This document shows, piece by piece, positions 3,419 to 36,106 of a stretch of DNA of 36,806 nucleotides. Both the position numbers and the translations under genes were made by a program. Positions within the stretch are counted from its first letter, which is position 1; the number at the start of each line of letters is the position of its first letter. The notes beneath the pieces were generated by a model. It did no database searches and had not been told where the DNA came from. It saw only the letters and a program-made list of their open reading frames with translations. Origin of the DNA: Bacteroidales bacterium (GTDB lineage: Bacteria; Bacteroidota; Bacteroidia; Bacteroidales; P3); assembly GCA_017960605.1 (NCBI GenBank), contig JAGCYV010000035.1:1-36806 (forward strand), read 5' to 3'.

Positions 3419-4900
3419 TCATTTTCCGATGCAGAACCGCGAGAAGATATTGCCCAGGACCTCGTTGTTGGTCACCTCGCCGGTGACGGTGCCGAGGTGG
3501 TAGAGGGCGTCGCGGAGATCGACGGCCACCAGATCGCACGGCGTGCCTGCCTCCAGCCCTTCGCGGACCTGAGAGAGTGCCTCCTGCACGCGGCGTAGGG
3601 CGGCATAGTGGCGTTCGTTGCTCACCAGCACGCTGTCGGTGCCCATCTCCTGACGCACAGCCTCCACCATGGCCGCTTTCAGCGCCTCGATGCCGGCGAA
3701 GGTCTTGGTTGATACGTTGATAGGTTGATAGGTTGATAGGTTGATACGTTGATACGTTGATGGGTTGATAGGTTGTCGGCTGAGCCGACGGCATACCAGA
3801 TACGTTGATGGGTTGATAGGTTGATACGTTGATAGGTTGTCGGCTGAGCCGACGGCATACCAGATACGTTGATAGGTTGTCGGCTGAGCCGACGGCATAC
3901 CAGATACGTTGATCGGTTGATAGGTTGTCGGCAGGAGGTCGGTTTTGTTGAGGACGACGATCACCTTCTTGCCGGAGAGGTCGAGGTCGGGCTCCTGCCA
4001 CGGGGTGGTGGCGTCGTGGACGAGCAGCACAATCTGGGCATCGGCGACGGCCTTGAGGCTGCGCTCTATGCCGAGGGCCTCAACGGTGTCGGTACTGTGG
4101 CGCAGGCCGGCGGTGTCGATGAAGCGGAACGTGAGGCCGTCGATGGTCAGGAGCTCGTCGATGGTGTCGCGGGTGGTGCCGGGAATATCGCTCACGATGG
4201 CGCGGTCGTCGCCCACCAAGGCGTTGAGCAGCGAGGACTTGCCCGCGTTGGGCCGTCCGACGATGGCCACCGGGATGCCCCTTTTCAGGGCGTTACCCAG
4301 GCGGAAGCTGCCGATCAAAGAGGAGAGTTCGGTGAGGAGTGTTGAAATCAGACCGTTCAACTGTGTGCGGTCGGCGAACTCGACATCCTCCTGGCTGAAG
4401 TCGAGCTCCAGTTCCAGCAGGCTGGTGAGGTCGAGCAGCTGCTGCCGCAAGGTCTTGAGGGTTTCCGCATAGCCGCCCCTCAGCTGGCTGACGGCCAGAC
4501 GGTGCTGCTGGGGTGTGGCGGCATCGATGAGGTCGGCCACCGCTTCGGCCTGCGAGAGGTTGAGGCGACCGTTGCGGAAGGCACGGAGGGTGAACTCGCC
4601 GGGTTCCGCCAGACGGATACCGTCGTTGATCAGCACCTGCACCAGCGCCTCCTGCAGGAAGAGCGACCCGTGGCAGGTGAGCTCCACAGTGGGCTCGCCG
4701 GTGTAACCCCGAGGATAATAGACGGCCACGATGTCGTCCAGCTCGTCGAAACGGCAATAGACAGCATGTCGCGGCGGCAATTCTTTGACGCTGAGATGAC
4801 GCAACACCGTCGGCAGAGCCTCGCTGCCGCTCAACCGCAGCATGGCCACCCCTCCCACCCCGCGGGGTGTGGAGACCGCCACTATGGTATCCTCATTCAT
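3419..4900 (-). CDS. mnmE: tRNA uridine-5-carboxymethylaminomethyl(34) synthesis GTPase MnmE, with a low-complexity insertion of about 70 residues
   Basis: 493 residues from the ATG at 4900, which overlaps the preceding stop by 8 nt; a start at 4924 is possible but gives an atypical extension. With MnmG, MnmE modifies U34 of certain tRNAs. The N-terminal THF-binding domain is followed by the G domain: G1 GRPNAGKSS (about 215-223), G2 GTTRD (about 241), G3 DTAGLR (about 262) and G4 NKTD (about 318). The C-terminal motif is FCIGK, whose Cys is conserved in the family. Between G4 and the G5-like STK (about 397-399), where homologues have a short loop, lie about 72 residues built from the DNA array at 3707-3932, reading as STYQPIN-type repeats. 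All other motifs are intact and in frame, so I infer the protein is functional. It is the last gene of the uvrA operon. Confidence 0.96.
   Translation of the reverse strand: MNEDTIVAVSTPRGVGGVAMLRLSGSEALPTVLRHLSVKELPPRHAVYCRFDELDDIVAVYYPRGYTGEPTVELTCHGSLFLQEALVQVLINDGIRLAEPGEFTLRAFRNGRLNLSQAEAVADLIDAATPQQHRLAVSQLRGGYAETLKTLRQQLLDLTSLLELELDFSQEDVEFADRTQLNGLISTLLTELSSLIGSFRLGNALKRGIPVAIVGRPNAGKSSLLNALVGDDRAIVSDIPGTTRDTIDELLTIDGLTFRFIDTAGLRHSTDTVEALGIERSLKAVADAQIVLLVHDATTPWQEPDLDLSGKKVIVVLNKTDLLPTTYQPINVSGMPSAQPTTYQRIWYAVGSADNLSTYQPINPSTYLVCRRLSRQPINPSTYQRINLSTYQPINVSTKTFAGIEALKAAMVEAVRQEMGTDSVLVSNERHYAALRRVQEALSQVREGLEAGTPCDLVAVDLRDALYHLGTVTGEVTNNEVLGNIFSRFCIGK
3707..3932. repeat. Tandem octamer array with three copies of a 29-bp hairpin unit, inside mnmE
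   Basis: On the + strand the basic unit is SGTTGATR (8 nt), in tandem many times. Three identical 29-bp units are interspersed at 3775-3803, 3839-3867 and 3879-3907. Each starts with the inverted repeat GTCGGC-TGA-GCCGAC (6-bp stem, 3-nt loop) and continues GGCATACCAGATAC. A last GTCGGC at 3927-3932 coincides with the mnmE codons following NKTDLL. Copy spacing is 64 and 40 nt, both 1 mod 3, so the three copies are translated in three different frames (SGMPSAQP, WYAVGSAD, CRRLSRQP). None contains a stop on the mnmE coding strand. Three octamers give an 8-residue peptide period. Confidence 0.97.
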
Positions 4901-5375
4901 TCCCACCGATGTATTTGTCTCCAAAAAGCGATTGCATCTCCTCGTCGGTCAGCCCCAGGTCGATCTTGATGCGGTACATGTTGGGATAGTTGAGGAAAAG
5001 CACCAGGACGGTGACGATGGCCAGCATGAGCAATGTGTTGCGGGCGGAGAGGATGGTGAAGGCGCAGAGCAGCACCACCACAGCCCACATGGTGAGGTAG
5101 AGCGAACGCACATGGGCCGCATAGCCGCCGAGTTTCAACTCCAACCCGTCGGACTGACGCAGACGGGGTATGGTGCGGCGCACGGTGAGCAGCGTCATGC
5201 TGACGGCCAGCACCGCCAACACGGCTCCCGCGATGAGCATCCACCGCGAGGTGTAGGCCGAAGGATAGAAGCGCCAGGGGCTGAGATAGATGAACAGCAC
5301 CGTCAGAATCACCATCCCCATCGAGCCCCAGAGGCCGATGGCAGAGGAACGGCGGATCGTCTTGATATGATTCAT
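4893..5375 (-). CDS. Small integral membrane protein of unknown function
   Basis: 160 residues from the ATG at 5375, which forms an ATGA overlap with the uvrA stop (5372-5374). I prefer it to an upstream start at 5411. Four hydrophobic segments are visible: about residues 10-30, 38-58, 90-108 and 110-128. They are arranged as two pairs separated by a charged linker (VRRTIPRLRQSDGLEL). The C-terminal tail (YRIKIDLGLTDEEMQSLFGDKYIGGNE) is probably cytosolic. I do not recognise a named family. Its stop overlaps the mnmE start by 8 nt, so translational coupling to both uvrA and mnmE is likely. The position between a DNA-repair and a tRNA-modification gene gives no firm functional hint. Confidence 0.85.
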   Translation of the reverse strand: MNHIKTIRRSSAIGLWGSMGMVILTVLFIYLSPWRFYPSAYTSRWMLIAGAVLAVLAVSMTLLTVRRTIPRLRQSDGLELKLGGYAAHVRSLYLTMWAVVVLLCAFTILSARNTLLMLAIVTVLVLFLNYPNMYRIKIDLGLTDEEMQSLFGDKYIGGNE

Positions 5376-10477: not shown

Positions 10478-10483
10478 CAGACG

Positions 10484-12192: not shown

Positions 12193-15100
12193 ATGCGCTT
12201 AACCGAAGAATACCAGGAAAGTAGGCTTGTCAATCAACTCACCGACCGCCTCCGCGGAAAGGGTACACGACTCCATATAGACGGAATGACCGGCTCGCTG
12301 CCTGCCGTAGTGATTGCCGCTACTGCCCAACAACTCAACACCGCCTCCCACCTTGTCATTGCCCCCGACAAGGAATCTGCCTTCTATCTCTCCAACGACA
12401 TTGAGGCCCTGCTGAATGAGGCCGACACCCAGGTGATGCTTTTCCCCACCTCCTACCGCAAAGCCTACCTCTACGACAGCGACCAGACCGACAACGCCAA
12501 CATACTGATGCGCAGCGAGGTGGTAAAAACGCTCTCATCGGGAGTGCCCCTGACGGTGGTCACCTACCCCGAGGCGCTGAGCGAAAAGGTGGTCTCCACA
12601 GGAGTGCTGCGGGCCAACACCTTGCGCCTGAACCGCAACGAGCAACACGACCTGTGGGAGGTAGCCGACCAACTGCAGGAGATGGGATTCGAACGCGAAG
12701 ATTTTGTGGTCGAACCCGGGCAATATGCCGTCCGAGGCGGCATCCTCGATGTCTTCTCTTTCGCCTCCGACCTCCCCTTCCGCATCGAGTTCTTCGACGA
12801 CAACATCGACTCCCTCCGCACCTACGACCCTGTCACCCAACTCTCCGTCAAGCAACTGGACCGACTGGATATCCTGCCCAACCTGACGGACAACACCGAA
12901 CGCAGTGTAGAGAAAAAGGTGAGCCTGCTGGAGTATTTCGGCAGCAGCGACACCGTATGGGTGCAGAGCCTGATGATAGTTACCCAACGCATCGATGCCT
13001 TGATGGAGGAAACCCGCAAAGCCTATGCCGACCGTATGGCAGACTCTGCGCACCCCATCGTCGGCACCCTGCCCAAACCCGAGGACATCTGCTGCCCGCA
13101 CGACGAACTGCTCCGTGGCATGCTGCAACTAAACATCGTGGAATACGGCAACAGCCACTACTTCAAGGACGAAGAGCGAATCGAGACCCACAGCGAACCC
13201 CAGCCGGCGTTCAACAAGCAGTTCGACCTGCTGACCGACACCCTCAACCGCTACGCCGAACAGGGCTACCGGCTGCTCATCACCGTCAGCAACGAGAGTC
13301 AGGAGAAACGACTGAAGAAAATCTTTGAGCAATCGGGCAATCATAACTTTCAATTCTCAATCTTCAACTTTCAATTATCCCACGGCTTCATCGACCACGA
13401 CGAATGTCTCCTCTGCTTCACCGACCATGAGATTTTCGAGCGCTACCACAAATACACCGTCAAAGACCTCCGTTCCACCCATGAGGCACTAACCCTCAAG
13501 GAACTGTTCGAACTGAAACCGGGCGATTACGTAACCCATATCGACTACGGTGTGGGACGTTTCAGCGGGCTGGAAAAGGTGACCCAGAACGGCAAGAGCC
13601 AGGAACTCATACGCCTCATCTACAAGAACAACGACGTTCTCTACATCAGCATCCACGGCCTGCACAAAATCAGCCGCTATGTAGGCCGCGAGGGTGAGGC
13701 GCCGACGCTCAACCGCTTGGGCAGCAACACCTGGCAGGTACTCAAGCAGAAGACCAAACGGCAGGTGAAGGACATCGCCCGCGACCTCATTGCCCTCTAC
13801 GCCAAACGCAAGGCCTCGCATGGTTTCGCCTTCAGCGCCGACTGTTCGATGCAGACCGAACTGGAAGCCAGCTTCCTCTACGAGGACACCCCCGACCAGT
13901 TGAAGGCCACTATCGCTGTGAAACACGATATGGAGGAGCAGGCTCCGATGGACCGCCTCGTCTGCGGGGATGTAGGCTTCGGCAAGACCGAGGTGGCCAT
14001 CCGTGCCGCTTTCAAGGCCTGCTGCGACTCGAAGCAGGTAGCCGTACTGGTGCCCAGCACCGTACTGGCTTTCCAACACTACAACACCTTCCGCGAGCGT
14101 CTGAAAGACATGCCTGTCCGCGTCGATTACCTCAACCGGTTCCGCAGCGCCAAGGAAAAAACTCAGATATACAAAGACATAGAAGCCGGCAAGATAGACA
14201 TTCTCATCGGAACCCACGCCATCACCAACAAAGACCTCAAGTTCAAGGACCTGGGACTGCTCATCATCGACGAGGAACAGAAGTTCGGCGTCAGCGTCAA
14301 AGAGAAACTGAAACAGATGAAGGTGGGCGTCGATTGCCTCACCCTCACCGCAACCCCTATTCCCCGCACCCTCCAGTTCTCTCTCATGGGAGCCCGCGAC
14401 CTCTCGGTCATCCAGACGCCGCCGCCCAACCGGCAGCCCATCGAGACCGAACTCTCCGACTTCAACGAAGAGCTCATCCGCGACGCCATCAGCTACGAGA
14501 TGTCCCGTGGAGGACAGACATTCTTCATCAGCAACCGCGTGGAGAACCTGCCCGAGATGGCGGGATTGGTGCAACGCCTGGTGCCCGATGCTCGGGTGGC
14601 AATGGCCCACGGACGATTGGACGGCAAAGAGGCCGAGGATACGCTGATGCGATTCGTGGAGGGCGACATCGACGTGTTGGTGGCCACCTCCATCGTGGAG
14701 AACGGTCTCGATATACCGAACGCCAACACCATGATTATCAACAACGCCCATCAGTTCGGACTGAGCGATCTGCACCAGATGCGAGGCCGTGTGGGTCGTT
14801 CGAACCGCAAGGCCTTCTGCTACCTCCTCATCCCGTCCTACCTCTCCCTCACCGACGATGCCCAACGCCGCCTCCGCGCCATCGAGGAGTTCTCCACCAT
14901 CGGCAGCGGATTCAACATCGCCATGCGCGACCTCGATATCCGCGGTGCCGGCAACATATTGGGCGCCGAGCAGAGCGGATTCATCTCGGAGATTGGCTAC
15001 GACATGTACCACAAGATTCTCAACGAAGCCATCGAAGAACTGAAAGAGACCGACTTCAAGGAGCTCTTTGCCGCCGAAGCCGAGGAGCGCAAGGAATACG

Positions 15101-18045: not shown

Positions 18046-18073
18046 GCCAATGGCCAATGGCCAATGACCACTA
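18046..18073. repeat. Four tandem heptamers (GCCAATG) in the purA leader
   Basis: GCCAATG is repeated three times exactly (18046-18066), and a related ACCACTA follows. Read one base-phase over, the units (AATGGCC, AATGACC, ACTACTT) are the same family as those in the radical SAM gene at 28795-28822. The array lies between the purA -7 element and start codon, so it should be transcribed in the purA 5' leader. Confidence 0.9.
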
Positions 18074-18092: not shown

Positions 18093-18145
18093 CAACTTTT
18101 TTTACAATAAAGCGGATTTTTTTTCAACACCTTCTGCACAGCCAC

Positions 18146-18222
18146 TTCCTCCAGTGTCTCTCCAGTGTTCCTCCAGTCTTCCTCCAGTCTTCCTCAAGCC
18201 ATCCTTCAAGTCTCCCTCAAGT
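18146..18222. repeat. Seven tandem 11-mers between the sialidase and purA genes
   Basis: Seven 11-nt units with consensus TTCCTCMAGTS fill exactly 77 nt. The first four carry CCAG and the last three TCAAG or similar. They start 53 nt upstream of the purA -7 element and end 8 nt from the sialidase stop. No ORF with coding character uses them. Confidence 0.92.
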
Positions 18223-18230
18223 CTATGGTG

Positions 18231-20459: not shown

Positions 20460-21512
20460 TCAAACGATGATTGCTTCGGGTTCGAGGGTGACGCCGAATT
20501 GACGGCGTACGTCTTTCTGTATGGCTTTTGCAAGAGCAACCACTTCAGCGCCGGTACAGGAACCAGTATTGTAGAGCACAAGGGCCTGCTTGGGCCACAC
20601 GCCGGCACGGCCGAGGGTCTTTCCCTTCCAGCCGGCCCGGTCAATTAGCCAGCCGGCAGAGAGTTTGTAGGTGTTTAGCGTTAAGTGATTAGCGTCTAGT
20701 GGATGGGCATCGGGCATGTCGGGATGCTCAGCTTTGAGGCGGAGGTAGGTGGCCTCATCGACGACGGGGTTCTTGAAAAAGCTGCCGGCGGAACCATATT
20801 CTTCAGGACGCGGAAGCTTGCTCCAACGCACCTCAGTGACGATGTCGCGCATCTGCTGCTGCGTGGGGTCGGCGATGCCACGTCGCTGTAACTCGTCAGA
20901 CAAGGCCTTGTAGCCGAGGTTGGGCGTGAAGGTGGTGTTGAAACGGAGTTTGACGCGCCAGATGAGCCAGCGGCCGGGTTGCTGCTTGAAGATGGAGGTG
21001 CGGTAACCGAAAGCACACTCCTCGTTGGAGAAAGTGCGGCGGTCGCCACTAACAAGGTCGATGGCATCCACCGTATCTACCAGGTCCTTGATTTCCACCC
21101 CATATGCACCGACATTCTGTACGACCGCAGCGCCGATGTTGCCTGGGATGGCGGAAAGGTTCTCCATGCCGTAGTACTTGTAACCTACACTGATACGCAC
21201 TACCTCGTCAGTCAGCATACGGGCACCGACGGTGAGGTACTTGTAACGCTCGTCGCTGCCGCCATGAAAGACGGCCTCGCCAATCTTGATGAGGGAGCCC
21301 TCGTAGTCCTTAGTAAAGACGATGTTGCTGCCCTCGCCAATGACCATGTAGGGGGCTTTGCGGAAGTCGCTTTTGAGGAGTTCTTCCACGTCGTACATAA
21401 AGCGGAATGGCTCGTCGAGGGTGCTGCCGCGAAGAAAGAGGATGCGTCGCGCCCGTGCGTCGATGCCGAAGGTATTCAGTCCCTTAAGGGAGTAGTTTTC
21501 GTATATCTCCAT
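20460..21512 (-). CDS. murB: UDP-N-acetylenolpyruvoylglucosamine reductase MurB, with a small heptamer-derived insertion
   Basis: 350 residues, type I MurB. It is a FAD enzyme that reduces UDP-GlcNAc-enolpyruvate to UDP-MurNAc for peptidoglycan. Visible motifs are the start YSLKGLNTFGI, the FAD-binding VIGEGSN and SAIPGNIGAAVVQNVGAYG, the Tyr-containing FGYRTSIFK, the catalytic-Ser region GSAGSFFKNP and the C-terminal KLSAGWLIDRAGWKGKTLGRAGV. Directly before KLSAGWLI the peptide LDANHLTLN is encoded by four heptamers (20672-20699). By memory of other Bacteroidales MurB proteins this loop is about six or seven residues longer than usual. All catalytic motifs are intact. The gap to the preceding MATE gene is 3 nt, and a 2-nt gap precedes the next gene. 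Confidence 0.97.
   Translation of the reverse strand: MEIYENYSLKGLNTFGIDARARRILFLRGSTLDEPFRFMYDVEELLKSDFRKAPYMVIGEGSNIVFTKDYEGSLIKIGEAVFHGGSDERYKYLTVGARMLTDEVVRISVGYKYYGMENLSAIPGNIGAAVVQNVGAYGVEIKDLVDTVDAIDLVSGDRRTFSNEECAFGYRTSIFKQQPGRWLIWRVKLRFNTTFTPNLGYKALSDELQRRGIADPTQQQMRDIVTEVRWSKLPRPEEYGSAGSFFKNPVVDEATYLRLKAEHPDMPDAHPLDANHLTLNTYKLSAGWLIDRAGWKGKTLGRAGVWPKQALVLYNTGSCTGAEVVALAKAIQKDVRRQFGVTLEPEAIIV
20672..20699. repeat. Four tandem heptamers (coding-strand CTAAACG-like) inside murB
   Basis: The coding (minus) strand has four 7-nt units of consensus CTAAACG over 28 nt. Two of the units are CTAATCA and CTTAACG. The third unit is the only one whose TAA would fall in the murB frame. There the sequence is CTTAACG, so the codon is TTA rather than TAA. 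Confidence 0.9.
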
Positions 21513-23775: not shown

Positions 23776-24995
23776 CTCTTGATTTTATTCTGCAGGGCCA
23801 TGATGGCATTGTAGGCGATGAGTCCGTTGGCCAACTCGAGGCTACGCTCATCAACCATGAGGTTGGGACGGTGGAGATTGCTGAAGGGAGTGCCGGGTTC
23901 GTGAATGCCGATACGGAAATAGCAGGCCGGTATCTTCTGTGCGAAGAAGGCGAAGTCCTCGGCGGTCATGCGGAGGTCAAGCCACTCGACATTCTCCTCG
24001 CCGACATAGGCACAGGCGTTGTCGTGCACCTGCTGTGTGCAGGCGTCGTCGTTGAAGACGTAGGGGTAGCCGTAGTCGATGAAGAGTTCACACTCGGCTC
24101 CCATGGCCTCGGCCACGCCGGTGCTTATCTTGCGAATCTTCTCATGGGCTTCAAGGCGCCACTTCTCGTCGAAGGTGCGGATAATGCCCTCCATCTTCAC
24201 CGTATCAGGGATGATGTTGGTGCGGCCGCCGACTTCCTGTATCTTGCCGATGGTAAGCACCGTGGGCATCATGGGGGCGGCGTTGCGAGAAACCACCTGC
24301 TGCAGGGCAATAACGATATGGCTGGCCACTACGATGGGGTCAACGCTCAGGTGCGGCGTGGCTCCGTGGCCGCCGAGACCCTTAACTGTCCAATAGAGCT
24401 CGTCGGTCGAGGCCATGTACTTGCCTTTGCGCATGCCCACTTTACCACAGTCCATCTCCGGCAAGCAGTGGAAAGAGTAAATCTCGTTGGGCGTGATGTC
24501 GTCGAACAGACCGTCTTCCATCATCATGCGTGCACCGCCGGGGTACTTCTCTTCCGACGGTTCGAAGATGAACATCAGCGTGCCGCTGAACTGGTCTTTC
24601 AGCTGTATGAGGATTTTGATGGCGCCGAGGAGCGAGCAGGTGTGCATATCGTGTCCGCAAGCATGCATCACGCCAGGCTTCTCGCTGGCGAACGGCAAGC
24701 CCGTACACTCGGTAATGGGCAACGCGTCGTAGTCGGAGCGGAGCGCGACGCAGTATTGTCTTATCTCCTGGTCTCCTGTCTCCTTATCTCCTTTAAGGAG
24801 AGCCGTAACACCTGTACGTCCAATCCCCGTCTTAGGCTCCAGTCCCATCGCGCGCAACCGTTCGGCCACGAACTCCATGGTGCCATACTCCTCCTGCGAG
24901 AGATCGGGGTGCCTATGCATCCACCGCCGCCACTCTATCACCTCCTCGCGCTGCGCATGCGCCAGTTCTTTGATTCTATCTATCAGCATGTTCAT
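23772..24995 (-). CDS. M20-family amidohydrolase (IAA-amino-acid/aminoacyl hydrolase type) with a repeat-derived insertion
   Basis: 407 residues. Metal-binding and catalytic motifs are complete: WMHRHPDLSQEEYGT, the DYDALPI loop, MHACGHDMHTC, EPSEEKYPGGARMM, FHCLPE and GLGGHGATPH, ending GTPFSNLHRPNLMVDE. These enzymes hydrolyse N-acyl amino acids or related amides with a dinuclear metal centre; the physiological substrate is unknown. Between TGVTALLKG and CVALRSDYDALPI lies the polar peptide DKETGDQEIRQY. It comes from a tandem array at 24761-24791, at a place where homologues have only a short turn. The start overlaps the GH20-like stop by 4 nt (ATGA), and the stop overlaps the kinase start by 4 nt. 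A second Met at residue 3 is an equivalent start. Confidence 0.94.
   Translation of the reverse strand: MNMLIDRIKELAHAQREEVIEWRRWMHRHPDLSQEEYGTMEFVAERLRAMGLEPKTGIGRTGVTALLKGDKETGDQEIRQYCVALRSDYDALPITECTGLPFASEKPGVMHACGHDMHTCSLLGAIKILIQLKDQFSGTLMFIFEPSEEKYPGGARMMMEDGLFDDITPNEIYSFHCLPEMDCGKVGMRKGKYMASTDELYWTVKGLGGHGATPHLSVDPIVVASHIVIALQQVVSRNAAPMMPTVLTIGKIQEVGGRTNIIPDTVKMEGIIRTFDEKWRLEAHEKIRKISTGVAEAMGAECELFIDYGYPYVFNDDACTQQVHDNACAYVGEENVEWLDLRMTAEDFAFFAQKIPACYFRIGIHEPGTPFSNLHRPNLMVDERSLELANGLIAYNAIMALQNKIKR
24761..24791. repeat. Four tandem 7-8-mers (coding-strand GGAGAYA) inside the M20 amidohydrolase
   Basis: On the coding (minus) strand, GGAGATAA, GGAGACA, GGAGACCA and GGAGATAA follow one another over 31 nt. 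They are adjoined by a small palindrome, CTCCTT-T-AAGGAG (24788-24800). The array encodes GDKETGDQEIR. Confidence 0.88.
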
Positions 24996-27897: not shown

Positions 27898-28100
27898 AAA
27901 ACAAAGCCCCACTTCTTCTTATTCCCTGCCTCCTTGTCGCCTTGTTCCTTGCCTCCTGCCAGCGCACTTGCGTCTGCTACGGCTATGACGGACTGGAGCA
28001 CCGCTACAGCGAGGAGCAGGTCGATGCCAACGGAGGCAACTGCCAGAATATGATTATCCAGGCCAACACTCGTTTCTACTCCGTATGCAACTGGGAATAA
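27894..28100 (+). CDS. Small Cys-rich lipoprotein (family member 1 in this window)
   Basis: 68 residues from the ATG at 27894, which overlaps the flippase stop (ATGA). The signal peptide ends in the lipobox LASC (Cys22). The mature peptide is only about 47 residues and has Cys26-x-Cys28, Cys50 and Cys65. The same C-x-C, then 22-23 residues, Cys, then a later Cys occurs in the two small lipoproteins at 35536-35802 and 35807-36067. I take the three as one family. The function is unknown. The four cysteines could form two disulfides or bind a metal. The last 16 nt overlap the start of the radical SAM gene. Confidence 0.8.
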   Translation: MKNKAPLLLIPCLLVALFLASCQRTCVCYGYDGLEHRYSEEQVDANGGNCQNMIIQANTRFYSVCNWE

Positions 28101-29032
28101 ACACGCAGGAAACCTGCAACCTCTGTCCCCGTCGTTGCGGTGCCGACCGCACTCAAAGCAAAGGCTTCTGCGGAGCCACTGACTCGCTGGAGGTAGCCTC
28201 TGTCTGTGTGCATCGCGGCGAGGAACCACCCCTCAACCCTATCGTCAATGTCTTCTTCGCCCACTGCAACCTTCAGTGCGTCTATTGCCAGAACTACCAG
28301 ATTAGTGGCCAGTGCACAGTGACCGACGACTTGTGTGCCGAGTCGGCAAGCACCCTCGCCGACCGCATCTGCCAACAACTTAACACCGAACACTTAACGA
28401 CAAGCACTCCCCTTATCGGTCTCGTCACCGCCGCCCACTACGTAACACACATCCCCCTCATCATCGACGAACTGCACAGCCGAGGGCTGCACCCCACGGT
28501 CGTCTATAACAGCAGCGGCTACGAAAGCGTCGAGACCCTCCGCTCACTCGAAGGGCTCATCGACATCTATCTGCCCGACTTCAAATACATGGACCCCCTC
28601 CTCGCCAAAGCCTACAGCCACGCCTCCGACTATCCCGAGGTGGCCACCGCTGCCCTCAGGGAGATGATACGCCAGGTGGGCCTGGGACTCAAAACTGACG
28701 AGAACGGCACCGCCTACCGCGGCCTCATCGTCCGCCACCTCGTCCTCCCGGGAGCCGTCGAAAACTCTCTCGCCGTCCTCAACCACCTCGCCCAAATGGC
28801 CACCGACCACTGGCCACTGGCCGCCCTCCACCTCTCCCTCATGGCGCAATACTTTCCCCCTCGCCCGGGGCTTCCCTCTCCCCTCGACCGCACCGTCACC
28901 CCCGAAGAATACCGAACCGTCGTCAGCCGCGCCGAGGAACTGGGCCTCACCGACGGCTGGATCCAGGAACTGACAGCTCAGGACAACTACCGTCCCGACT
29001 TCACCCAAACCAATCCTTTCCCCGCTCTATAA
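28085..29032 (+). CDS. PflX-like radical SAM protein (COG1313 type), with two heptamer-derived segments
   Basis: 315 residues. The N-terminal Cys-rich part CNLCPRRCGADR...GFCG (about 11-30) and the radical SAM cluster motif CNLQCVYCQNYQISG (CxxxCxxC, about 61-68) place it near uncharacterised PflX-type, pyruvate-formate-lyase-activase-like proteins. The barrel continues through IGLVTAAHYV, TVVYNSSGYESVETLR, DIYLPDFKYMD and GLIVRHLVLPG. Family knowledge: it binds a 4Fe-4S cluster and cleaves SAM; the substrate is unknown. Two stretches not expected from the family, NTEHLTTSTP (about 99-108) and MATDHWPLAA (about 238-247), are encoded by heptamer arrays at 28378-28405 and 28795-28822. The ATG at 28085 overlaps the lipoprotein gene by 16 nt. 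Confidence 0.9.
   Translation: MQLGINTQETCNLCPRRCGADRTQSKGFCGATDSLEVASVCVHRGEEPPLNPIVNVFFAHCNLQCVYCQNYQISGQCTVTDDLCAESASTLADRICQQLNTEHLTTSTPLIGLVTAAHYVTHIPLIIDELHSRGLHPTVVYNSSGYESVETLRSLEGLIDIYLPDFKYMDPLLAKAYSHASDYPEVATAALREMIRQVGLGLKTDENGTAYRGLIVRHLVLPGAVENSLAVLNHLAQMATDHWPLAALHLSLMAQYFPPRPGLPSPLDRTVTPEEYRTVVSRAEELGLTDGWIQELTAQDNYRPDFTQTNPFPAL
28378..28405. repeat. Four tandem heptamers (ACTTAAC) in the radical SAM gene, first array
   Basis: The units ACTTAAC, ACCGAAC, ACTTAAC and GACAAGC occupy 28 nt. Only the second unit lies in the phase where ACTTAAC would be read ACT-TAA (stop). It is ACCGAAC instead, giving ACC-GAA. Confidence 0.88.
28795..28822. repeat. Four tandem heptamers (ACTGGCC) in the radical SAM gene, second array
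   Basis: The units AATGGCC, ACCGACC, ACTGGCC and ACTGGCC occupy 28 nt. The purA-leader array at 18046-18073 belongs to the same sequence family. Confidence 0.88.
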
Positions 29033-29706: not shown

Positions 29707-31164
29707 ATGACAATCAAAGACCTTGAACCCAAAGAGTTGTGGAGCAATTTCTACTCCCTCACCCGCCAGCCCCGTCCTTCGAAGCACGAGGAGAAAGTGC
29801 GTAAATTCCTCGTCGATTGGGCCAAAAAGAACAAGATTGCCTGCCGCGTCGATGGCGTGGGCAACGTGATTCTGAGCAAACCCGCCACCAAGGGCATGGA
29901 GAAAGTGCTCCCCGTGGTGCTGCAAGCCCACATGGACATGGTGCCCCAGGCCCGTGCCGGCAAGAAGCACGACTTTGAGAAAGACCCCATCGAGACCAAG
30001 ATTGTGGGCGACTGGGTGTATGCCTGCGACACGACCCTCGGTGCCGACGACGGCATGGGTGTGGCCGCCATCATGGCCGTCTTTGCCAGCAAGACCGTCA
30101 AGCACGGCCCGCTGGAGGCCCTCATCACCACCGACGAGGAAACCGGCATGACCGGAGCTTTCGGCCTGAAGAAGGGCGAACTGAAAGGCAAATACCTCAT
30201 CAACCTCGACTCCGAGACCGAGGGCGAGCTCTATGTGGGTTGCGCCGGCGGTATCGACGCCGCCCTCAGCATCCCCTACAAGACTGAGAAAGCCCCGAAG
30301 GGCATGGTGGCCTACAAGCTCACCATCGGCGGTCTCAAAGGCGGCCACAGCGGCATGGAGATCAACACCGGCCGCGCCAACGCCAACAAACTGATGTTCC
30401 GTCACCTGCGCTGGGTGGCTGAATGCGGCATCCGTCTCATAAGCATCGAAGGCGGCAACATGCGCAACGCCATCCCGCGCGACGCCGAAGCCGTCGTCGC
30501 CATGCCCAAGGAGCACGAAGCCTGCATCCTGAAGGAGTTCGACAAGGTGGCCGGCTGGGTGAAGAAAGAGCTGGCCTCGGTCGAGCCTGACTTCTTTATG
30601 AAATACGAGAAGGTACGCATGAACCCCACCGTCATCGACGAAGAGGGCACACAGAAGATTATCAACCTGATGATGGTGGCCCCCAACGGCGTCATCCGCA
30701 TGAGCAAGGATATGGAAGGCCTCGTGGAGACCTCGCTGAACCTGGCCATCGCCAAGACCACAGCTGCCAAGAAGTTTGTCGTCTATGCCCTGCTGCGTTC
30801 CTCGGTTGATACCGCCAAGGAAGCCCTGGCCGAGCGCCTCGTCTGCCTGGCCGAACTGGCAGGCGGCAAGTGCCAACTCAGCGGTGCCTATCCCGGATGG
30901 AAGCCCAACATGCAGAGCCAGTTGCTCAAGACCATGAAGGCCACCTACAAGAAGCTCTACAAGAAGGAGCCCGCCGTGATGGCCATCCACGCCGGCCTCG
31001 AGTGCGGTCTGCTCGGCGGCAAATACCCCGACATGGAGATGATCTCCTTCGGTCCCACGCTGCAGAGCCCCCACAGCCCTGACGAGCGTTGCAACATCCC
31101 CAGCGCCAAGAAGTTCTACGACTACCTCCTGGCCGTCCTGGCAGCCATCCCCGTGAAGAAATAA
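29707..31164 (+). CDS. pepD: Aminoacyl-histidine dipeptidase (M20C, cytosol non-specific dipeptidase)
   Basis: 485 residues from the ATG at 29707 (MTIKDLEPKELWSNFYSLTRQPRPSKHEEK), the normal PepD length; an in-frame ATG 99 nt upstream overlaps the promoter and is rejected. Zinc-site motifs are present: QAHMDMVPQ (about 78-86), LGADDGMGVA (about 115), TTDEETGMTGAFG (about 140-152), the lid segment GLKGGHSGMEINTGRANA and the C-terminal HAGLECGLLGGKYPDMEMISFGP. PepD hydrolyses Xaa-His and other dipeptides in the cytosol. It is a single-gene unit with a perfect promoter and a strong terminator, which suggests strong and independent expression. Confidence 0.96.
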   Translation: MTIKDLEPKELWSNFYSLTRQPRPSKHEEKVRKFLVDWAKKNKIACRVDGVGNVILSKPATKGMEKVLPVVLQAHMDMVPQARAGKKHDFEKDPIETKIVGDWVYACDTTLGADDGMGVAAIMAVFASKTVKHGPLEALITTDEETGMTGAFGLKKGELKGKYLINLDSETEGELYVGCAGGIDAALSIPYKTEKAPKGMVAYKLTIGGLKGGHSGMEINTGRANANKLMFRHLRWVAECGIRLISIEGGNMRNAIPRDAEAVVAMPKEHEACILKEFDKVAGWVKKELASVEPDFFMKYEKVRMNPTVIDEEGTQKIINLMMVAPNGVIRMSKDMEGLVETSLNLAIAKTTAAKKFVVYALLRSSVDTAKEALAERLVCLAELAGGKCQLSGAYPGWKPNMQSQLLKTMKATYKKLYKKEPAVMAIHAGLECGLLGGKYPDMEMISFGPTLQSPHSPDERCNIPSAKKFYDYLLAVLAAIPVKK

Positions 31165-31187
31165 ACCCTTCACCAATGTGCATAAAA

Positions 31188-31223: not shown

Positions 31224-31235
31224 ACCGGTCAATCA

Positions 31236-33065
31236 TCAAAGGCCGATGAGAACCTTGATTTTCTCAATGTTGCTCTCGCGTTTCAGCTTGGCCTCCGCGT
31301 CGGCGGCATTGGCGCCGCGCATGGTGTTGATGAAGGCCTGCTGCATCTCGAGGATGTAGTCGCACTGACGGTCGTAGCGCCGCAGATCCTCGGTGTTGGT
31401 AATTTCCGTGAGGCCGCGGTAGGCCTTGTACATGCGGCTGTAGGCCTTGCGCATATTGTTGTAGGGCAGTTCGCGGTCGTTGATAATCTTCTCGTTGTCC
31501 TTCACCTGCTCCTGCTTGTGAAGCACCTTCAGGCAAAGCTGTTGCATCTCGACATGACTCTGTAGCACGTTGATGAAGCTGCGGCCACGCTCGACAGTGT
31601 AGAACGACGGACGCAGGTCGGCCTGCTTGCGCAGCAGACGGTAGCCGTTGGAGAGGACCGGATCCGTCTTGCGGCCGGCCGACAGGCTGTCGTCATTGGT
31701 GGCAATGGTGTGGCGCAGGTCTATCACATCGAGGAAGCACTGCTGCACACTCCTCACCTCGTCGAGCTGGGTTTCGTAGAGGTCGGCACCCGCAATGTCC
31801 TTGAATGACGGCATCGGCCTCAGGTGAGCCTGTGCGTCATGGTAAGTGGAGACCACATCGGGCAGGTTGCGCTGAGCCAGGATGGAGTCGCTGCGCATAC
31901 TCAGGTCCTCATAGACGGGATAGAGGTCCATGTAACGCTGCTGGGCAGCGATAAAGTCTTCCAGACTCTGGATAAAGAGGATGCTCTCGGCATTGGAGGT
32001 AAAGGCAGGCAGTTGATCAACGGTACGCAGCACATCGCGGTAGGCGGCAACCACATCGCGGTACCTCTTGCCGAAGAGCGACGCAATGTTCTCCGAACCC
32101 GAGGCGATGGTGGCACGCAGGTCGATGGTTTGCACATAGCGCTGCTGCACGTTGATGAGAGTGCGCATCCGGGTGGTGTAGTCCTCATACTCTTTCACGT
32201 CGGCAAAAGAGATGGGCACCGTGGTCTGCTTGAACACCTTGGTGTAACTGCGATAGATGTCGGAGTTCTCCTTGTCGCACCGCACCTTGAGCACATTCTT
32301 GAAATTCTCAATCTGATAGGGCAGCGAGTTCTGTCCGAGCACATTCTCCAGCACATCGTTCTGGAACGAGTTGAGCTGGTCCAGCCGTTCGATGCTCTCG
32401 TCGGTGGCGTTGCCCACCGAGAGGTCATACTTGTTATAGACCATCAGATAGCTATAGTAGAGGTCTTTCAGCTGCTTCAACTTGTTCTTGTCGGTGACAC
32501 CGGCACCGTCGCAGGCGGTGATGATGGCCCTGTGGTGCAGTTCGATGTTGGAACGCAAGTCGGAAGCCATGCGGTTACGCTCCTCCTGCTGACGGCGGGC
32601 CTCCTCCTCGGCGCGCTTGCGTGCCGCTTCCTTCTCGGCCTCGATGCGCTGCTGCTCCAGTCGGCTGTACTTGATACTCATGCGTCCCATCAGTTCGGCC
32701 AGGCTGCGCAGACGGTACTCATAGATGGCATAGTCGGCCAGGACGGTGTTGCTGTCGAGCCATATCAGGCTGTCACGGAACTCATAGTCGTTCTCTATCG
32801 ACGAGATGGCCTTCTGGGCTTTGGTACGGATGGAGACGCAGAGGTTGGTGAGATCCACATAGTTCTGCGGCTGCTCGTCCAAATAGCGCATGATGGCGGC
32901 GGTGTCGTTCACCCATGCCGAATCCAATCCATAGTTGCCCATCAAGTCACCCACACTCAGCACCGTGGGCGGAGTCACCTGTTTGGCCTTGGCTTTCTTG
33001 GGCTTCTGACTCATGGCCGCCATAGGCAGCAAGAGGATGAGAAAGACTAAGAGGATGCGTTTCAT
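31236..33065 (-). CDS. Secreted helical protein with degenerate internal repeats, unknown function
   Basis: 609 residues from the ATG at 33065, which opens the signal peptide MKRILLVFLILLLPMAAMSQ; an upstream ATG at 33128 would bury it and overlap the previous gene. After a basic stretch (KPKKAKAKQ) the protein is almost all helical. A coiled-coil-like segment at about 150-185 is rich in Glu, Arg and Ala (QQRIEAEKEAARKRAEEEARRQQEERNR). From about residue 200 onward there are about five units of 65-75 residues. Each has a Y-x-x-hydrophobic start, a central Phe/Leu and a Q-Q-x-(hydrophobic) motif (VQQRYVQTIDL, AAQQRYMDLYP, SVQQCFLDVIDL, MQQLCLKVLHK, MQQAFINTMRG). I do not recognise the family. 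It lies 33 nt after the Ser2 PurF-like gene. Confidence 0.85.
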   Translation of the reverse strand: MKRILLVFLILLLPMAAMSQKPKKAKAKQVTPPTVLSVGDLMGNYGLDSAWVNDTAAIMRYLDEQPQNYVDLTNLCVSIRTKAQKAISSIENDYEFRDSLIWLDSNTVLADYAIYEYRLRSLAELMGRMSIKYSRLEQQRIEAEKEAARKRAEEEARRQQEERNRMASDLRSNIELHHRAIITACDGAGVTDKNKLKQLKDLYYSYLMVYNKYDLSVGNATDESIERLDQLNSFQNDVLENVLGQNSLPYQIENFKNVLKVRCDKENSDIYRSYTKVFKQTTVPISFADVKEYEDYTTRMRTLINVQQRYVQTIDLRATIASGSENIASLFGKRYRDVVAAYRDVLRTVDQLPAFTSNAESILFIQSLEDFIAAQQRYMDLYPVYEDLSMRSDSILAQRNLPDVVSTYHDAQAHLRPMPSFKDIAGADLYETQLDEVRSVQQCFLDVIDLRHTIATNDDSLSAGRKTDPVLSNGYRLLRKQADLRPSFYTVERGRSFINVLQSHVEMQQLCLKVLHKQEQVKDNEKIINDRELPYNNMRKAYSRMYKAYRGLTEITNTEDLRRYDRQCDYILEMQQAFINTMRGANAADAEAKLKRESNIEKIKVLIGL

Positions 33066-33097
33066 GTTATCTCTCGGTTTTTGGTTTGTTTTTTTCT

Positions 33098-34522
33098 TCA
33101 GTCGCCGTAGGAAGAGGCATCGAAGCAATGGGTGCAGATGCTCTCCTTGGGCATTCCGATGGCGGTGCAGACATCTTCCACCGTATTGAATTTCAAGGTA
33201 TCCACACCGACATGCTGGCGAATCACCTCCACCATGCGGTCATATTCGGGCGTGTCGGCCTGCTGGTAGGCACGCAGTTTCTCCGGAGCCAGGTTGGCGG
33301 CGGGGATGCCTTCCAGTTCCTCAATGACACGGCGGGTAATAAGCTCGCGGTCGGTCTTGCTCTCGCTGAAGTTGAGGAACGTGCAACCATGCACCAGCGG
33401 CGGGCAGCTGATACGCACATGCACCTTCCTGGCGCCGTAGTCGTAGAGCATCTTCACGTTGTCTCTCAGCTGGGTGCCACGCACGATGGAGTCGTCACAG
33501 AAGACCACCTCCTTGCCCTGCAACACGGCGCGGCTGGGGATAAGTTTCATCTTGGCCACCAGGAAGCGGTCGGCCTGGTTCACAGGCATGAACGAGCGGC
33601 TCCAGGTGGGAGTGTATTTCAACAAGCCGCGTTTGTACGGTATCTTCTTGCCGTTGCTGTATCCCAGCGCCATACCGATGCCGCTGTCGGGGATGGGGCT
33701 CACAAAGTCGGGTTCCACATCGTCGCGTTCTCCCATGATGCGGCCCAGGTTGTAGCGCACCTCCTCGGCATTGATGCCTTCGTATTCTGTGCAGGGGTAG
33801 CCGTAGTAAATCCAGAGGAAGGAGCAAATCTGGTTCTTCTCCTCGGCAGGCTTCATCACCTTGATGCCGCCATCGACCGTCACCTTCACAATCTCGCCGG
33901 GACCCACGAAGCGGCAGGTCTCATAGCCGAGATTGACATACGAATGGCTCTCGCTGGCCACTGCATAATCGTTGCCCCTGCGTCCGATGACGATGGGGGT
34001 GCGGCCGTAGCGGTCACGAGCGGCGATGATGCCGTCGGGTGTCAGTATCAGCATGCTGCACGAACCCTTCACCTTGTCATAGACATTCTGGATACCCTCC
34101 GTAAAGTCGGCACCCTGCGTGATGAGCAACGCCACCAGCTCGGTGGGGTTGGTGCGTCCCATCGACAGGTCGGTAAACTGCTGGTGCTGGTCCAGGCAGG
34201 ACTGCTCCAGTTCGGCAATGTTGTTGATTTTGCTCACCGTGGCAATGGCGAAACGTCCCAGGTGAGAGTTCACCATCACCGGCTGTGCCTCGGTGTCGCT
34301 GATGACACCGATACCCACGTTACCTTTCATCTCATCCAGGTCCTTCGAGAACTTGGGACGGAAATGCGAGTTCTGGATGTTGTGGATGTTCTGGTGGGCC
34401 TGACTGCCGTCGAAGGTAGCCATACCGGCACGCTTGGTACCCAGATGCGAATGATAATCCGTTCCATAGAACAGATCGGAAATACAGGATTGTTCGGAGA
34501 CCACTCCAAAGAAACCACTCAT
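33098..34522 (-). CDS. Amidophosphoribosyltransferase (PurF)-like protein with Ser in place of the nucleophile Cys
   Basis: 474 residues. The order is glutamine amidotransferase class II (NTN) domain, then phosphoribosyltransferase domain. The protein starts MSGFFGVVSEQ, whereas functional PurF starts MCG with Cys as the Ntn nucleophile. NTN-fold elements remain: YHSHLGTKRAGMATF, GNVGIGVISDTEAQP and GRTNPTELVALL. The PRPP-binding loop is intact in VVFCDDSIVRGTQLRD, and the C-terminal CTHCFD matches PurF. Family knowledge: PurF transfers glutamine-derived NH3 to PRPP. Without Cys2, glutaminase activity should be lost, so ammonia-dependent or regulatory function is inferred. From memory, other Bacteroidales carry a similar Cys-less second copy. 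A TATCTTTG element is 86 nt upstream. Confidence 0.9.
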   Translation of the reverse strand: MSGFFGVVSEQSCISDLFYGTDYHSHLGTKRAGMATFDGSQAHQNIHNIQNSHFRPKFSKDLDEMKGNVGIGVISDTEAQPVMVNSHLGRFAIATVSKINNIAELEQSCLDQHQQFTDLSMGRTNPTELVALLITQGADFTEGIQNVYDKVKGSCSMLILTPDGIIAARDRYGRTPIVIGRRGNDYAVASESHSYVNLGYETCRFVGPGEIVKVTVDGGIKVMKPAEEKNQICSFLWIYYGYPCTEYEGINAEEVRYNLGRIMGERDDVEPDFVSPIPDSGIGMALGYSNGKKIPYKRGLLKYTPTWSRSFMPVNQADRFLVAKMKLIPSRAVLQGKEVVFCDDSIVRGTQLRDNVKMLYDYGARKVHVRISCPPLVHGCTFLNFSESKTDRELITRRVIEELEGIPAANLAPEKLRAYQQADTPEYDRMVEVIRQHVGVDTLKFNTVEDVCTAIGMPKESICTHCFDASSYGD

Positions 34523-34607
34523 AATGTGTTTGTTTTAAATGATATTTTTATTTATATAATGTTGATTCAATTGTCATTATACCTCCAGCACCCTCACAAA
34601 TAAAGTG

Positions 34608-34615
34608 CAAAGATA
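34608..34615 (-). promoter_or_regulatory. -7 element of the promoter of the PurF-like gene
   Basis: The minus strand 34615-34608 reads TATCTTTG. T-rich DNA with several TTTG copies lies upstream, but the spacing to the nearest complete TTTG is about 16 nt rather than 19-21. The leader is about 80 nt and A/T-rich. Confidence 0.6.
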
Positions 34616-34670
34616 CAAAATAATCAACAAACAAATAAAAATATTTACCAACAGGCGGAGGGTTGATTTC

Positions 34671-35549
34671 CTACCGCGCCAGCGTGCGACTGATTTCCCG
34701 CTCGTTGACATTTCTGTAGTGGTAGGTAGCCACCAACCGCCCGTCGTCCATCAGGATAATCAACGGCCGCTGACCGTAGGTGATGTCGAGGAACAGCCCC
34801 TCCGGCAGGTCGGCAGGCTCGTAGTAGTGGAACCGCGTCGTGTCCAAATGGTTGCGTTTGGCGATAGATTCCAATTTCTCGCGGCTCATCCGGCAGAAAG
34901 GGCACCCGGGGGTGACGAATGCCACCAGTTGTGGCCCGCGGCTCAAACTGTCGGCTTCCAATGCGCCGTCGGGAGCGATGGCCGCCTCGAAGAGTTCCTG
35001 GTCGTAGCGGCTCTCCGAGCTGCGGAACATCCAGTTGTCGGGCACCGAAACACAGAACACTCCCACCATCACCGCCACGCCGAGAACGGCAGTAAGCACC
35101 ACCCTCGTGGCGTTCTTTCCAGCCTTGGATTCAAACCGACCCGAAAGCTTCATATACAGCAGCGTCAGCACTATCAGCACGGCGTTCTTCAGCAGCGACT
35201 GACCGGGATTCATCTCGGCCAGCCGGCCGAAGCACTGGCAGCTCTCGTTGCGGCCCGCCAGCGCGGCATAGCACAGGAACAGCGAGAAGAACAGCAGCAT
35301 GGCCAACGCCAGCAGGTTCACCCACCGCCGCCACCAACCCAAAGCCAGCAGCAATCCCGTCAGCAACTCGACAGCGATGCACAGCCGCACCAGGATATAA
35401 GTGGCGTTGAGGGAAAAGAACCCGTAGGAAAAAACATAAAGTTCGAAATCGTCGATGGCCATCAACTTGGCCACCGCCGACACCATGAACACCGCCGCCA
35501 GCAGCACCCGCAGCACCACGGCGACCACCTTGCTCTTATTTGCGTCCAT
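34671..35549 (-). CDS. MauE/DoxX-like membrane protein fused to a thioredoxin-like domain
   Basis: 292 residues. The N-terminal half has four membrane segments (about 8-30, 45-70, 78-97 and 118-135). This is the DoxX/MauE arrangement: VVLRVLLAAVFMVSAVAKLMAIDDFELYVFSYGF, then AVELLTGLLLALGWWRRW. It carries CQCFG after the third helix, a Cys pair often seen in MauE-like redox membrane proteins. Another hydrophobic stretch follows at about 150-165. The rest (about 170-292) is a thioredoxin-like fold with VTPGCPFCRMSREKL (active-site CPFC) and a region near YGQRPLIILMDDGRLVATY. I infer membrane-to-periplasm thiol electron transfer. It overlaps the upstream small lipoprotein gene by 14 nt. Confidence 0.87.
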   Translation of the reverse strand: MDANKSKVVAVVLRVLLAAVFMVSAVAKLMAIDDFELYVFSYGFFSLNATYILVRLCIAVELLTGLLLALGWWRRWVNLLALAMLLFFSLFLCYAALAGRNESCQCFGRLAEMNPGQSLLKNAVLIVLTLLYMKLSGRFESKAGKNATRVVLTAVLGVAVMVGVFCVSVPDNWMFRSSESRYDQELFEAAIAPDGALEADSLSRGPQLVAFVTPGCPFCRMSREKLESIAKRNHLDTTRFHYYEPADLPEGLFLDITYGQRPLIILMDDGRLVATYHYRNVNEREISRTLAR

Positions 35550-35802
35550 AGTCGCGGCAGCTCACCTCGCGCATCCCCACACGCCGCAACGTGTGACGGT
35601 TATCCACCACCACCTTCTCCTCCTTGCCCATCTCGGTGATGCTCTCGCACTTCATCTGCGAATCCACCGTGACGATGGTCTGATGCTCAGGATTCAACGG
35701 TTCCAAGTCGGTGCACTCGCACTGGTGCTCCTTGGCGCATCCCGCCAACACCGCGGCCGCCAACACCGCAGCCGTCAGAAATATATGTCTCTTGCTTTTC
35801 AT
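35536..35802 (-). CDS. Small Cys-rich lipoprotein (family member 2)
   Basis: 88 residues from the ATG at 35802, 4 nt after the preceding stop. The signal peptide has lipobox LAGC (Cys22). Cys28-x-Cys30, Cys52 and Cys82 match the order and the 22-residue middle spacing of the other two small lipoproteins in the window. Its 3' end overlaps the membrane-thioredoxin fusion by 14 nt, so the pair is probably translationally coupled. I infer a thiol-disulfide link between the two. Function is unknown. Confidence 0.82.
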   Translation of the reverse strand: MKSKRHIFLTAAVLAAAVLAGCAKEHQCECTDLEPLNPEHQTIVTVDSQMKCESITEMGKEEKVVVDNRHTLRRVGMREVSCRDYGRK

Positions 35803-35806
35803 ACTC

Positions 35807-36067
35807 TCATTGTTTATAGATGCTGTCGATGGCGAACTCATAATCCGTGCAATAGAGGGTGTCGGCCTTCAACGTGTCGAGCGACGTGTGGAAGTTCACC
35901 ATGTGCAACTGGTCGCACTCCCCTTTTTCGATTTTGACGATGCGCACATCGGAGTTGCGGGTGGCGTCGTTGCCACGCACCGAGCAGCGGCAGGTCTTCT
36001 GCTTGCTGCATCCCGCCAGCGCCATCACCATAGCGGCTCCCGCCAACAACAATACAATTCGTTTCAT
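35807..36067 (-). CDS. Small Cys-rich lipoprotein (family member 3)
   Basis: 86 residues starting MKRIVLLLAGAAMVMALAGC (lipobox Cys20). Cys26-x-Cys28, Cys51 and Cys73 follow. The sequence between them is otherwise unlike member 2, for example VRIVKIEKGECDQL against TIVTVDSQMKCESI, though both have a beta-strand running into the third Cys. It lies 46 nt after the ftsK stop and directly before member 2. The intervening DNA holds a short 9-mer array. Confidence 0.82.
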   Translation of the reverse strand: MKRIVLLLAGAAMVMALAGCSKQKTCRCSVRGNDATRNSDVRIVKIEKGECDQLHMVNFHTSLDTLKADTLYCTDYEFAIDSIYKQ

Positions 36068-36080
36068 ATGAATGACTATA

Positions 36081-36106
36081 TTCTTTAACTTCTTTAACTT
36101 CTTAAC
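36081..36106. repeat. Three tandem 9/8-mers (TTCTTTAAC) between ftsK and the small lipoprotein gene
   Basis: TTCTTTAAC occurs twice, followed by the 8-nt variant TTCTTAAC, 26 nt in all, starting 13 nt upstream of the lipoprotein ATG. It would be transcribed into the leader just ahead of the start codon. Confidence 0.85.

Follow-up and report, generated by a model that had tools for sequence, protein, structure and literature searches.

Short tandem arrays with units of 7, 8, 9, 11 and 14 nt are scattered within and between the genes of a 36,806-nt stretch of Bacteroidales DNA (contig JAGCYV010000035.1 of assembly GCA_017960605.1; hereafter the window). We found that the window arrays are real and above chance, that the same class of array extends across the genome and the genus and that the units form genome dialects, recurring around one genome and differing between genomes. 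The arrays look like a known kind of sequence, the long-unit simple repeats, and the turnover of their units in conserved protein loops looks new. We consider it fairly probable that they result from slippage by whole units, combined with unit families spreading through a genome and with selection.

Arrays in the window and across the genus

Tandem arrays were called with Tandem Repeats Finder (TRF), which also sets the array ends and hence the array lengths, at score thresholds of ≥30 and ≥40, and overlapping rows were merged. At the lower threshold, the 23 rows of the window merged into 17 arrays, in comparison with a mean of 5.3 (maximum 10) in 50 dinucleotide shuffles and of 7.9 (maximum 15) in 60 codon shuffles; the row at 27923–27957 scored only 35. 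An earlier note on this DNA had named a shuffled-codon control, and the array density exceeds it clearly at the higher threshold, with 10 arrays against a mean of 1.47 (maximum 4) in 60 codon shuffles. The arrays that the note had placed in mnmE, mfd, the purA leader, murB, an M20 peptidase gene and between genes were all located by TRF, and the features of the window are as follows.

3708–3931, minus strand: GTTGATAN octamer array in the MnmE loop; the coding strand reads STYQPIN, and the array has an internal 40-bp tandem duplication
3773–3798, plus strand: hairpin element TTGTCGGCTGAGCCGACGGCAYACCA, 26 nt, copy 1, interrupting a GTTGATA unit
3837–3862, plus strand: hairpin element TTGTCGGCTGAGCCGACGGCAYACCA, copy 2
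3877–3902, plus strand: hairpin element TTGTCGGCTGAGCCGACGGCAYACCA, copy 3
13338–13376, plus strand: TTTCAAT-type heptamer array in Mfd, N-terminal to the CarD/RID domain
18046–18070, strand not assigned: GCCAATG heptamer array, 3.6 copies, in the purA leader
18145–18224, strand not assigned: CTTCCTCMAGT 11-mer array, 7.2 copies, intergenic
20671–20701, minus strand: degenerate GTGATTAGCGTCAA array, 2.2 copies, in MurB, exceeding its counterpart in the nearest relative by 18 nt
24760–24793, minus strand: TCTCCTG/TCTCCTTA array in the M20 peptidase
28797–28822, plus strand: TGGCCAC heptamer array, 3.7 copies, in the open reading frame (ORF) 28085–29029, a possible radical-SAM activase
36081–36103: TTCTTTAAC nonamer array, 2.6 copies, intergenic, directly downstream of a gene with an FtsK C-terminal domain

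Pfam identified the host genes as MnmE, Mfd, PurA, MurB and Peptidase_M20. These named genes are housekeeping genes, and the contingency loci of phase variation turn surface or antigenic genes on or off within one strain; our set has one genome per species. The MnmE array occupies the loop between the NKxD and SAK motifs. The murB array is present but weak, having 2.2 copies of a 14-mer, and of the two arrays ascribed to radical SAM genes one was found and the second was not. The ORF that carries the former, probably the gene meant, has no Pfam match; a glycyl-radical activase model matches it weakly (E 7e-4), with a score well under the cut-off of that model; at this site the nearest relative has, by eye, a nonrepetitive sequence of equal length. 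The fixed format of four heptamers, or 28 nt, that the note had described does not hold. The array at 18145 consists of 11-mers, that at 36081 of 9-mers, that in mnmE of octamers and that in murB of 14-mers, and in 1.06 Mb of sequence from the genus exactly 28 nt is the length of 1 of 187 period-7 arrays; with lengths of 26–30 nt in 27 of the 187 and of 30–33 nt in 38, we rejected the format.

A generating process of the kind that the note had suspected is supported, and it is genome-wide. In 122 kb of the source genome (1.91 Mb in 78 contigs, 78% complete), taken regardless of repeats, we found 41 arrays with a score of ≥40, in comparison with 2.5 in shuffled sequence. A sample of 296 kb, made up of the nine stretches of this unbiased set and 11 stretches picked around octamer matches, contained 141 arrays in comparison with 5.3. 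The closest named database matches are metagenome-assembled genomes (MAGs) of uncultured Bacteroidales, many of them from ruminant guts, and the nearest of the 119 other genomes of the genus (G047) has an mfd gene 85% identical to ours. MnmE loci of 36 relatives carry 46.2 arrays per 100 kb (2.07 shuffled), and those of 44 more distant Bacteroidota, among which a few Bacteroidales MAGs possibly belong to the ingroup, 16.0 (2.80 shuffled); period-7 arrays number 72 in 692 kb and 5 in 762 kb of the two sets, respectively.

Certain periods dominate the class. In 1.66 Mb from 39 genomes, with overlapping loci removed and genome labels verified by sequence, we counted 191 arrays of base period 7, 159 of 11, 69 of 8, 58 of 9 and 24 of 12, followed by periods 6 (12 arrays), 10 (11), 5 (5) and 13 (2). 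Two-copy arrays of period 12, 15 and 18 within genes resemble ordinary coding repeats. The 191 heptamer arrays fall into 78 of 1172 possible unit classes, and 111 of them contain a single CA when read on the pyrimidine-rich strand, where the heptamer consensus is CA[AC]YYYY (about ten overlapping loci being counted twice in the consensus).

Unit swaps, genome dialects and dispersed elements

Orthologous segments, scored with TRF at ≥30, show that one site may carry different units in different species. In the Mfd loop, 18 of 28 distinct segments have an array and 10 have none; the units comprise 12 heptamers (mostly TTTTCAA/CTTTCAA, also ACTGCCA and CCGCCAA), three decamers (TTCACTCCCT), one 11-mer, one octamer and one 5-mer, the last a weak call. 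The MnmE loop has an array in 8 of 40 segments and none in 32, with six heptamers of at least five units (AAATTGA, GAGTGAG-type twice, ATTGATA, AGTTGGT and CCACCGG) and two weak GC-rich 6-mers making up the tally. Different units have colonized both loops repeatedly, and the independent gain proposed earlier is supported. The related claim that the arrays had been inserted into loops stands in part: relatives mostly lack the array in murB and mnmE, but the Mfd loop of the nearest relative has the same 39 nt and a related array.

At the murB site none of the eight orthologous segments has an array. The M20 site has one in 2 of 6 segments, a similar CTTATCTC and a different octamer, TTTGACTC; in one M20 orthologue (L185) the array is adjoined by a second hairpin, GTAGGGGCGTACCCCCGTGTACGCCC, and its inverse, which looks like a repetitive extragenic palindrome (REP). 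An array is found in 3 of 4 segments of the purA leader, one of them an 11-mer further along, and in the nearest relative the GCCAATG array at 18046 is replaced by a pair of ATTCACC/ACCCACT heptamers of equal length, a clear swap. The intergenic site at 18145 has other 11-mers in 2 of 6 segments and no array in the remaining four.

To compare close species, we met 188 arrays, of which 94 had no alignable orthologue and 46 had unaligned flanks. At the 48 comparable sites the unit was kept in 30 cases, replaced by another unit in 12 and absent in 6, with the comparison run in both directions so that one site can count twice. Four of the 12 replacements are likely mis-called (G072 110321; G023 45285, 52415 and 124604), and the other eight represent six distinct swap sites. 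Another clear swap, between GTTGATAN and a GTTTTGA-type heptamer, separates G008 and G023 at one site.

Insertion in the manner of a transposon with fixed ends was rejected from a scan of five species pairs. In these, arrays facing a gap of ≤8 nt were limited to one intergenic case (G023, joined contig 131757–131813), which had no clean ends and no visible target duplication and whose partner in G008 has another short sequence; the small mobile template envisaged in the earlier note is not supported in the form of an element with defined ends. The site lies upstream of a gene starting MFEEVIKHYLDFPK. Here, the source genome has GTTGATA, hairpin and CACTAAA arrays (L090, about 930–1090), G023 has eight copies of TAGTGGT, G008 the short other sequence, and G072 an ATTGATA-like stretch.

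Units are shared within genomes far more than between them. The same unit was found in 307 of 2679 pairs of arrays within genomes and in 526 of 30156 pairs between genomes, a 6.6-fold excess, when pairs in one locus were required to lie ≥3 kb apart and overlapping loci were removed (6.2-fold before removal). The excess was 2.7-fold for heptamers, 6.3-fold for octamers and 19-fold for 11-mers, and 0 of 200 permutations of the locus labels reached as high a value in any of the four tests. Such dialects need either spread within genomes or a lineage-specific bias. They also go beyond ordinary microsatellite drift, as the note had argued, the array in mnmE alone having 39 BLAST matches in the source genome (itself counted) and units differing between genomes.

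The octamer illustrates this. Three-unit GTTGATAN arrays are present in 50 of the 119 genus genomes, with 0 to 106 overlapping matches per genome; the highest counts are 106 in G034 and 87 in G079, and the source genome has 50 in comparison with 2 in the nearest relative. The reversed pattern, used as a control, has no match in any of the 119 genomes, and across the phylum only 2 of 296 sampled genomes have the array. The second of these, a genome of another order of the same class (G152), has both of its sites on a single contig of >4 Mb, an argument against an artefact of MAGs. Two contigs of a viral collection also have GTTGATAN ×3 arrays (L259 5385–5407 and L260 8082–8104), and such contigs are a possible vehicle between species.

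Triplets of the TTTTCAA type are less specific. Of 295 genomes of the order, 29 contain them (170 matches) and 30 contain their reversed control (94 matches), so that low scattered counts show nothing; the five high counts alone, 32 (source genome), 30, 26, 20 and 12, with a control of 0 in each, are informative on this unit. The reversed pattern (AACTTTY)n, found in those 30 of 295 genomes with up to 15 matches per genome, is itself a heptamer array and another unit family.

One vehicle of unit spread within a genome is a composite intergenic repeat in which a leader is followed by [TGACCTAGTAT]n and, after a spacer, by 11-mers of the [CTTGAGTCATA] type; some copies also carry GTTGATAN after these. 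The composite is a dispersed element with a tandem core, as in a miniature inverted-repeat transposable element (MITE) with an internal minisatellite, and by eye its left leader is conserved and its right end variable. It has at least eight copies in the source genome (seven matches plus L098) and occupies at least seven places in G047, both lower bounds as seven candidates were scored per positive genome, and was found in none of the 116 other genomes among 118 searched.

L265, L267, L269, L271, L273, L275 and L277: composite copies, source genome
L266–L278 (even numbers) and L279: composite copies, G047

The 26-nt hairpin TTGTCGGCTGAGCCGACGGCAYACCA (also TTGTCGGCNGAGCCGACGGCAYACCA, with some stem changes compensated) has a different distribution. 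With up to 3 mismatches allowed, the source genome has 17 matches, three of which are those of the mnmE array; 75 of 119 genus genomes contain the hairpin, and the control gave 0. In the source genome the hairpin often lies directly 3′ of GTTG within arrays, and its sites there include the following.

Window 3773–3902; L090, L092, L093, L094, L096:19480 and L098:8853: hairpin sites, source genome

In other genomes of the genus, where one locus per genome was viewed and the site was missed in some rows, it lies mostly outside arrays. It is conserved and dispersed in the genome as REP palindromes are, and it looks like a REP-type palindrome that landed in arrays rather than their cause. REP palindromes are mobilized by a Y1 transposase of the same genome; this family, PF01797, has matches in 73 of 119 genomes, with one match in the source genome, and none in G008 (88% complete), a genome with 12 hairpins.

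Origin of the arrays

We propose that the window arrays would be the local expression of genome-wide, fast-turning long-unit simple repeats, with units of 7 and 11 and then of 8 and 9 nt, in a genus of many species, uncultured Bacteroidales that live in ruminant guts. Arrays would grow and shrink by whole units, a pattern seen between species, presumably through replication or repair slippage in MutS-bearing cells. A few unit families would then reach many sites of one genome and give it the dialect that we observe, with the dispersed composite of 11-mer arrays, whose copies in some cases end in octamer arrays, as one vehicle. Selection would leave the arrays densest between genes and, within genes, mostly where all frames are open, both patterns being seen in our data, and the two loops that we examined most closely, those of Mfd and MnmE, have been recolonized repeatedly by different units.

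Of the three generators suggested in the earlier note, slippage has support from the structure of the arrays. Orthologous arrays of the same unit are mostly equal in length, some differ by single bases, and one differs by 14 nt, or two heptamers; in the composite elements, by eye, orthologues L266 and L275 have 3 and 4 11-mers, and L276 and L277 differ by 33 nt, or 3 × 11. Heptamer units resemble their neighbors more than they do after shuffling (0.524 vs 0.465; 0 of 500 shuffles as high), a likeness weaker in 9-mers (P 0.014) and 11-mers (P 0.036) and reversed in 12-mers (four arrays, P 0.98). ORFs, defined by a simple rule, cover about 92% of bases; 48 of 104 heptamer arrays lie in them and 56 outside, making these roughly 14 times denser outside genes, and for 11-mers the numbers are 11 and 105 of 116. 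Of 77 coding arrays, 66 have units free of stops in the coding orientation. Unit loops above about 3–4 nt are handled poorly by mismatch repair. Loss of that repair was rejected as the cause, since MutS_V is present in 41 of 41 genomes, 38 of them with strong matches (over 220 bits).

Several observations weigh against this account. Slippage alone leaves the dozens of sites of one octamer, and its near-absence in the nearest relative, unexplained, and the composite is found in only 2 of 118 genomes, so that most families have no known vehicle. Octamers show no neighbor correlation once overlapping loci are removed (0.423 vs 0.404, P 0.23; P 0.034 before the removal), and at distance three the units of both octamer and 11-mer arrays show less likeness than after shuffling. 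The eighth base of GTTGATAN is likewise uncorrelated between neighbors in 24 arrays (0.373 vs 0.363 shuffled, P 0.47; P 0.14 against letters dealt across arrays). Length differences of 36 and 39 nt between same-unit arrays are, as measured, not whole units. In a 90%-identical pair (G056, joined contig 29896–29930, and G114, joined contig 14306–14340), a five-unit array reads AGTGGA[GA] in one member and AGGTGA[GA] in the other, the same two bases having changed in almost every unit with the per-unit A/G pattern kept; this uniform change may be a coincidence. The open frames of coding arrays are in part a result of the ORF calling itself. The MutS-domain matches of G021, G026 and G037 are weaker and perhaps represent MutS2, and all array comparisons are between species.

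Some of these points would follow if units were written by a trans-acting process, whether reverse transcription, short-patch conversion or template switching, that copies a few source arrays into new sites, in the units current in that genome, and leaves slippage to trim them. Template- or repair-based spread would explain the dialects, and copying in trans also accords with the bursts of single units, the different units at orthologous sites, the fixed core of 7 nt with its random eighth base, the lack of neighbor correlation in octamers, and the jointly changed units of the G056/G114 pair. We nevertheless regard it as unlikely: heptamer neighbors are correlated as local duplication predicts, and our checks of MutS, of the Y1 transposase and of five species pairs revealed neither an enzyme driving the process nor fixed ends or a target duplication. 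A Y1 transposase driving GTTGATAN was rejected, PF01797 being present in 32 of 50 carriers and 41 of 69 non-carriers, with no association when both lists are taken as the same 119 genomes. A stronger version, in which a few source units copied in trans overwrite older arrays, each genome thereby acquires its dialect and conserved protein loops serve as recording sites, is likewise unlikely; if it were true, a template step of 7 nt would underlie the 7-nt core and the random base after it. If spread within genomes needs an enzyme, such an enzyme would be new.

Sequence-biased slippage alone would instead prefer pyrimidine-rich heptamers with one CA, and similar units would arise everywhere independently; a cold-shock or single-strand-binding-like protein that covers about 7 nt could stabilize the loop. 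The CA[AC]YYYY grammar, the single CA in 111 of 191 arrays and the high TTTTCAA counts in a few families of the order that are not related to one another point this way, and PMC4679880 mentions that CspB binds to heptamer repeats. Such a bias fails to predict the dialects, above all the 19-fold excess of 11-mers, or the species bursts, and the reversed TTTTCAA control matches as many genomes as the pattern (30 vs 29 of 295). Relative to GC skew, the arrays show little strand bias, with 56 vs 81 heptamer arrays (P 0.04, one of three tests), 10 vs 17 octamer arrays and 43 vs 49 11-mer arrays, and we judge slippage bias alone to be rather improbable. That the arrays are functional sites for protein binding or regulation, kept by selection, seems very unlikely: density is highest between genes, the octamer core is fixed beside a free eighth base, and TAACTGA repeats lie near start codons in other bacteria (PMC4679880), but arrays also occur inside housekeeping genes, and unrelated units replace them at orthologous sites. 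Least probable of all, and highly so, is that we are seeing ancestral coding sequence, chance or assembly artefacts. Units kept at 30 of 48 comparable sites and the two-copy coding arrays with periods of 12, 15 and 18 would suit such a reading; against it stand the codon-shuffle control, the lack of an array in murB relatives and most mnmE relatives, related arrays in separately assembled genomes and the two GTTGATAN sites on the G152 contig.

Relation to known repeats

The arrays are closest to the long simple sequence repeats (LSSRs), which have units of 5–11 nt with heptamers the commonest class in most genomes (Mrazek 2007, as summarized in PMC4679880 and PMC4692102). The genus shows both the excess of tandem 5–11-nt units and the excess of heptamers (191 arrays, in comparison with 12 hexamer and 11 decamer arrays, beside 159 of 11-mers). 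Unit size, heptamer prevalence, the many sites per genome and slippage as the proposed cause are shared with LSSRs as those summaries present them; in contrast to them, our genus has dozens of unit families, 11-mers nearly as common as heptamers, genome dialects, and units that differ between species in conserved housekeeping loops.

Heptamer families are also described in cyanobacteria and Xanthomonas, among them GGGAATC, GGGGA(T/C)T and three heptamers of Calothrix (PMC4692102, sections consulted). As here, they are dispersed in one genome, and length and sequence vary at the same intergenic site between close species; their units are G-rich and over-represented between genes according to the same sections, whereas our units are many, are pyrimidine-rich on one strand and lie in genes as well.

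The heptamer repeats of Calothrix go by the name of STRR. TAACTGA direct repeats, in turn, are reported from Beggiatoaceae and five Bacteroidetes, some Bacteroidetes having other heptamers beside TAACTGA and relatives without arrays (PMC4679880, excerpts), so that presence or absence and mixed heptamers in Bacteroidetes are not new. Those short heptamer arrays resemble ours in being patchy across distant lineages with no evident transfer mechanism; they have one main unit, mostly intergenic upstream of start codons, and the excerpts do not describe unit swaps in conserved genes. The composite element resembles the BrickBuilt/PgRS MITEs of Porphyromonas gingivalis, which have 19 copies and, in BrickBuilt, 23-nt units and IS5-like terminal inverted repeats (PMC4596501, in part). 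Like BrickBuilt as described there, it is dispersed between genes, has an internal tandem array and is confined to one species group; it differs in having 11-mers and octamers instead of 23-nt units, and the likeness is one of architecture. For Bacteroidales, we found no description of a repeat vocabulary of many units with unit turnover in conserved genes, most subscription papers being outside our search.

Short repeats of bacteria have mostly been studied as phase switches with units of 1–5 nt. With fast turnover of 7-, 8- and 11-nt units, the same loop of an essential enzyme of repair or tRNA modification carries unrelated peptides across relatives, and the genus offers a natural test of the birth, spread and loss of long-unit repeats. 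Rickettsia palindromic elements, defined palindromes of over 100 nt that lie in genes, are similar in that in-frame repeats are tolerated in housekeeping proteins, and differ from the short arrays with interchangeable units seen here. For annotation, recurrent peptide strings such as STYQPIN represent repeat DNA and not domains.

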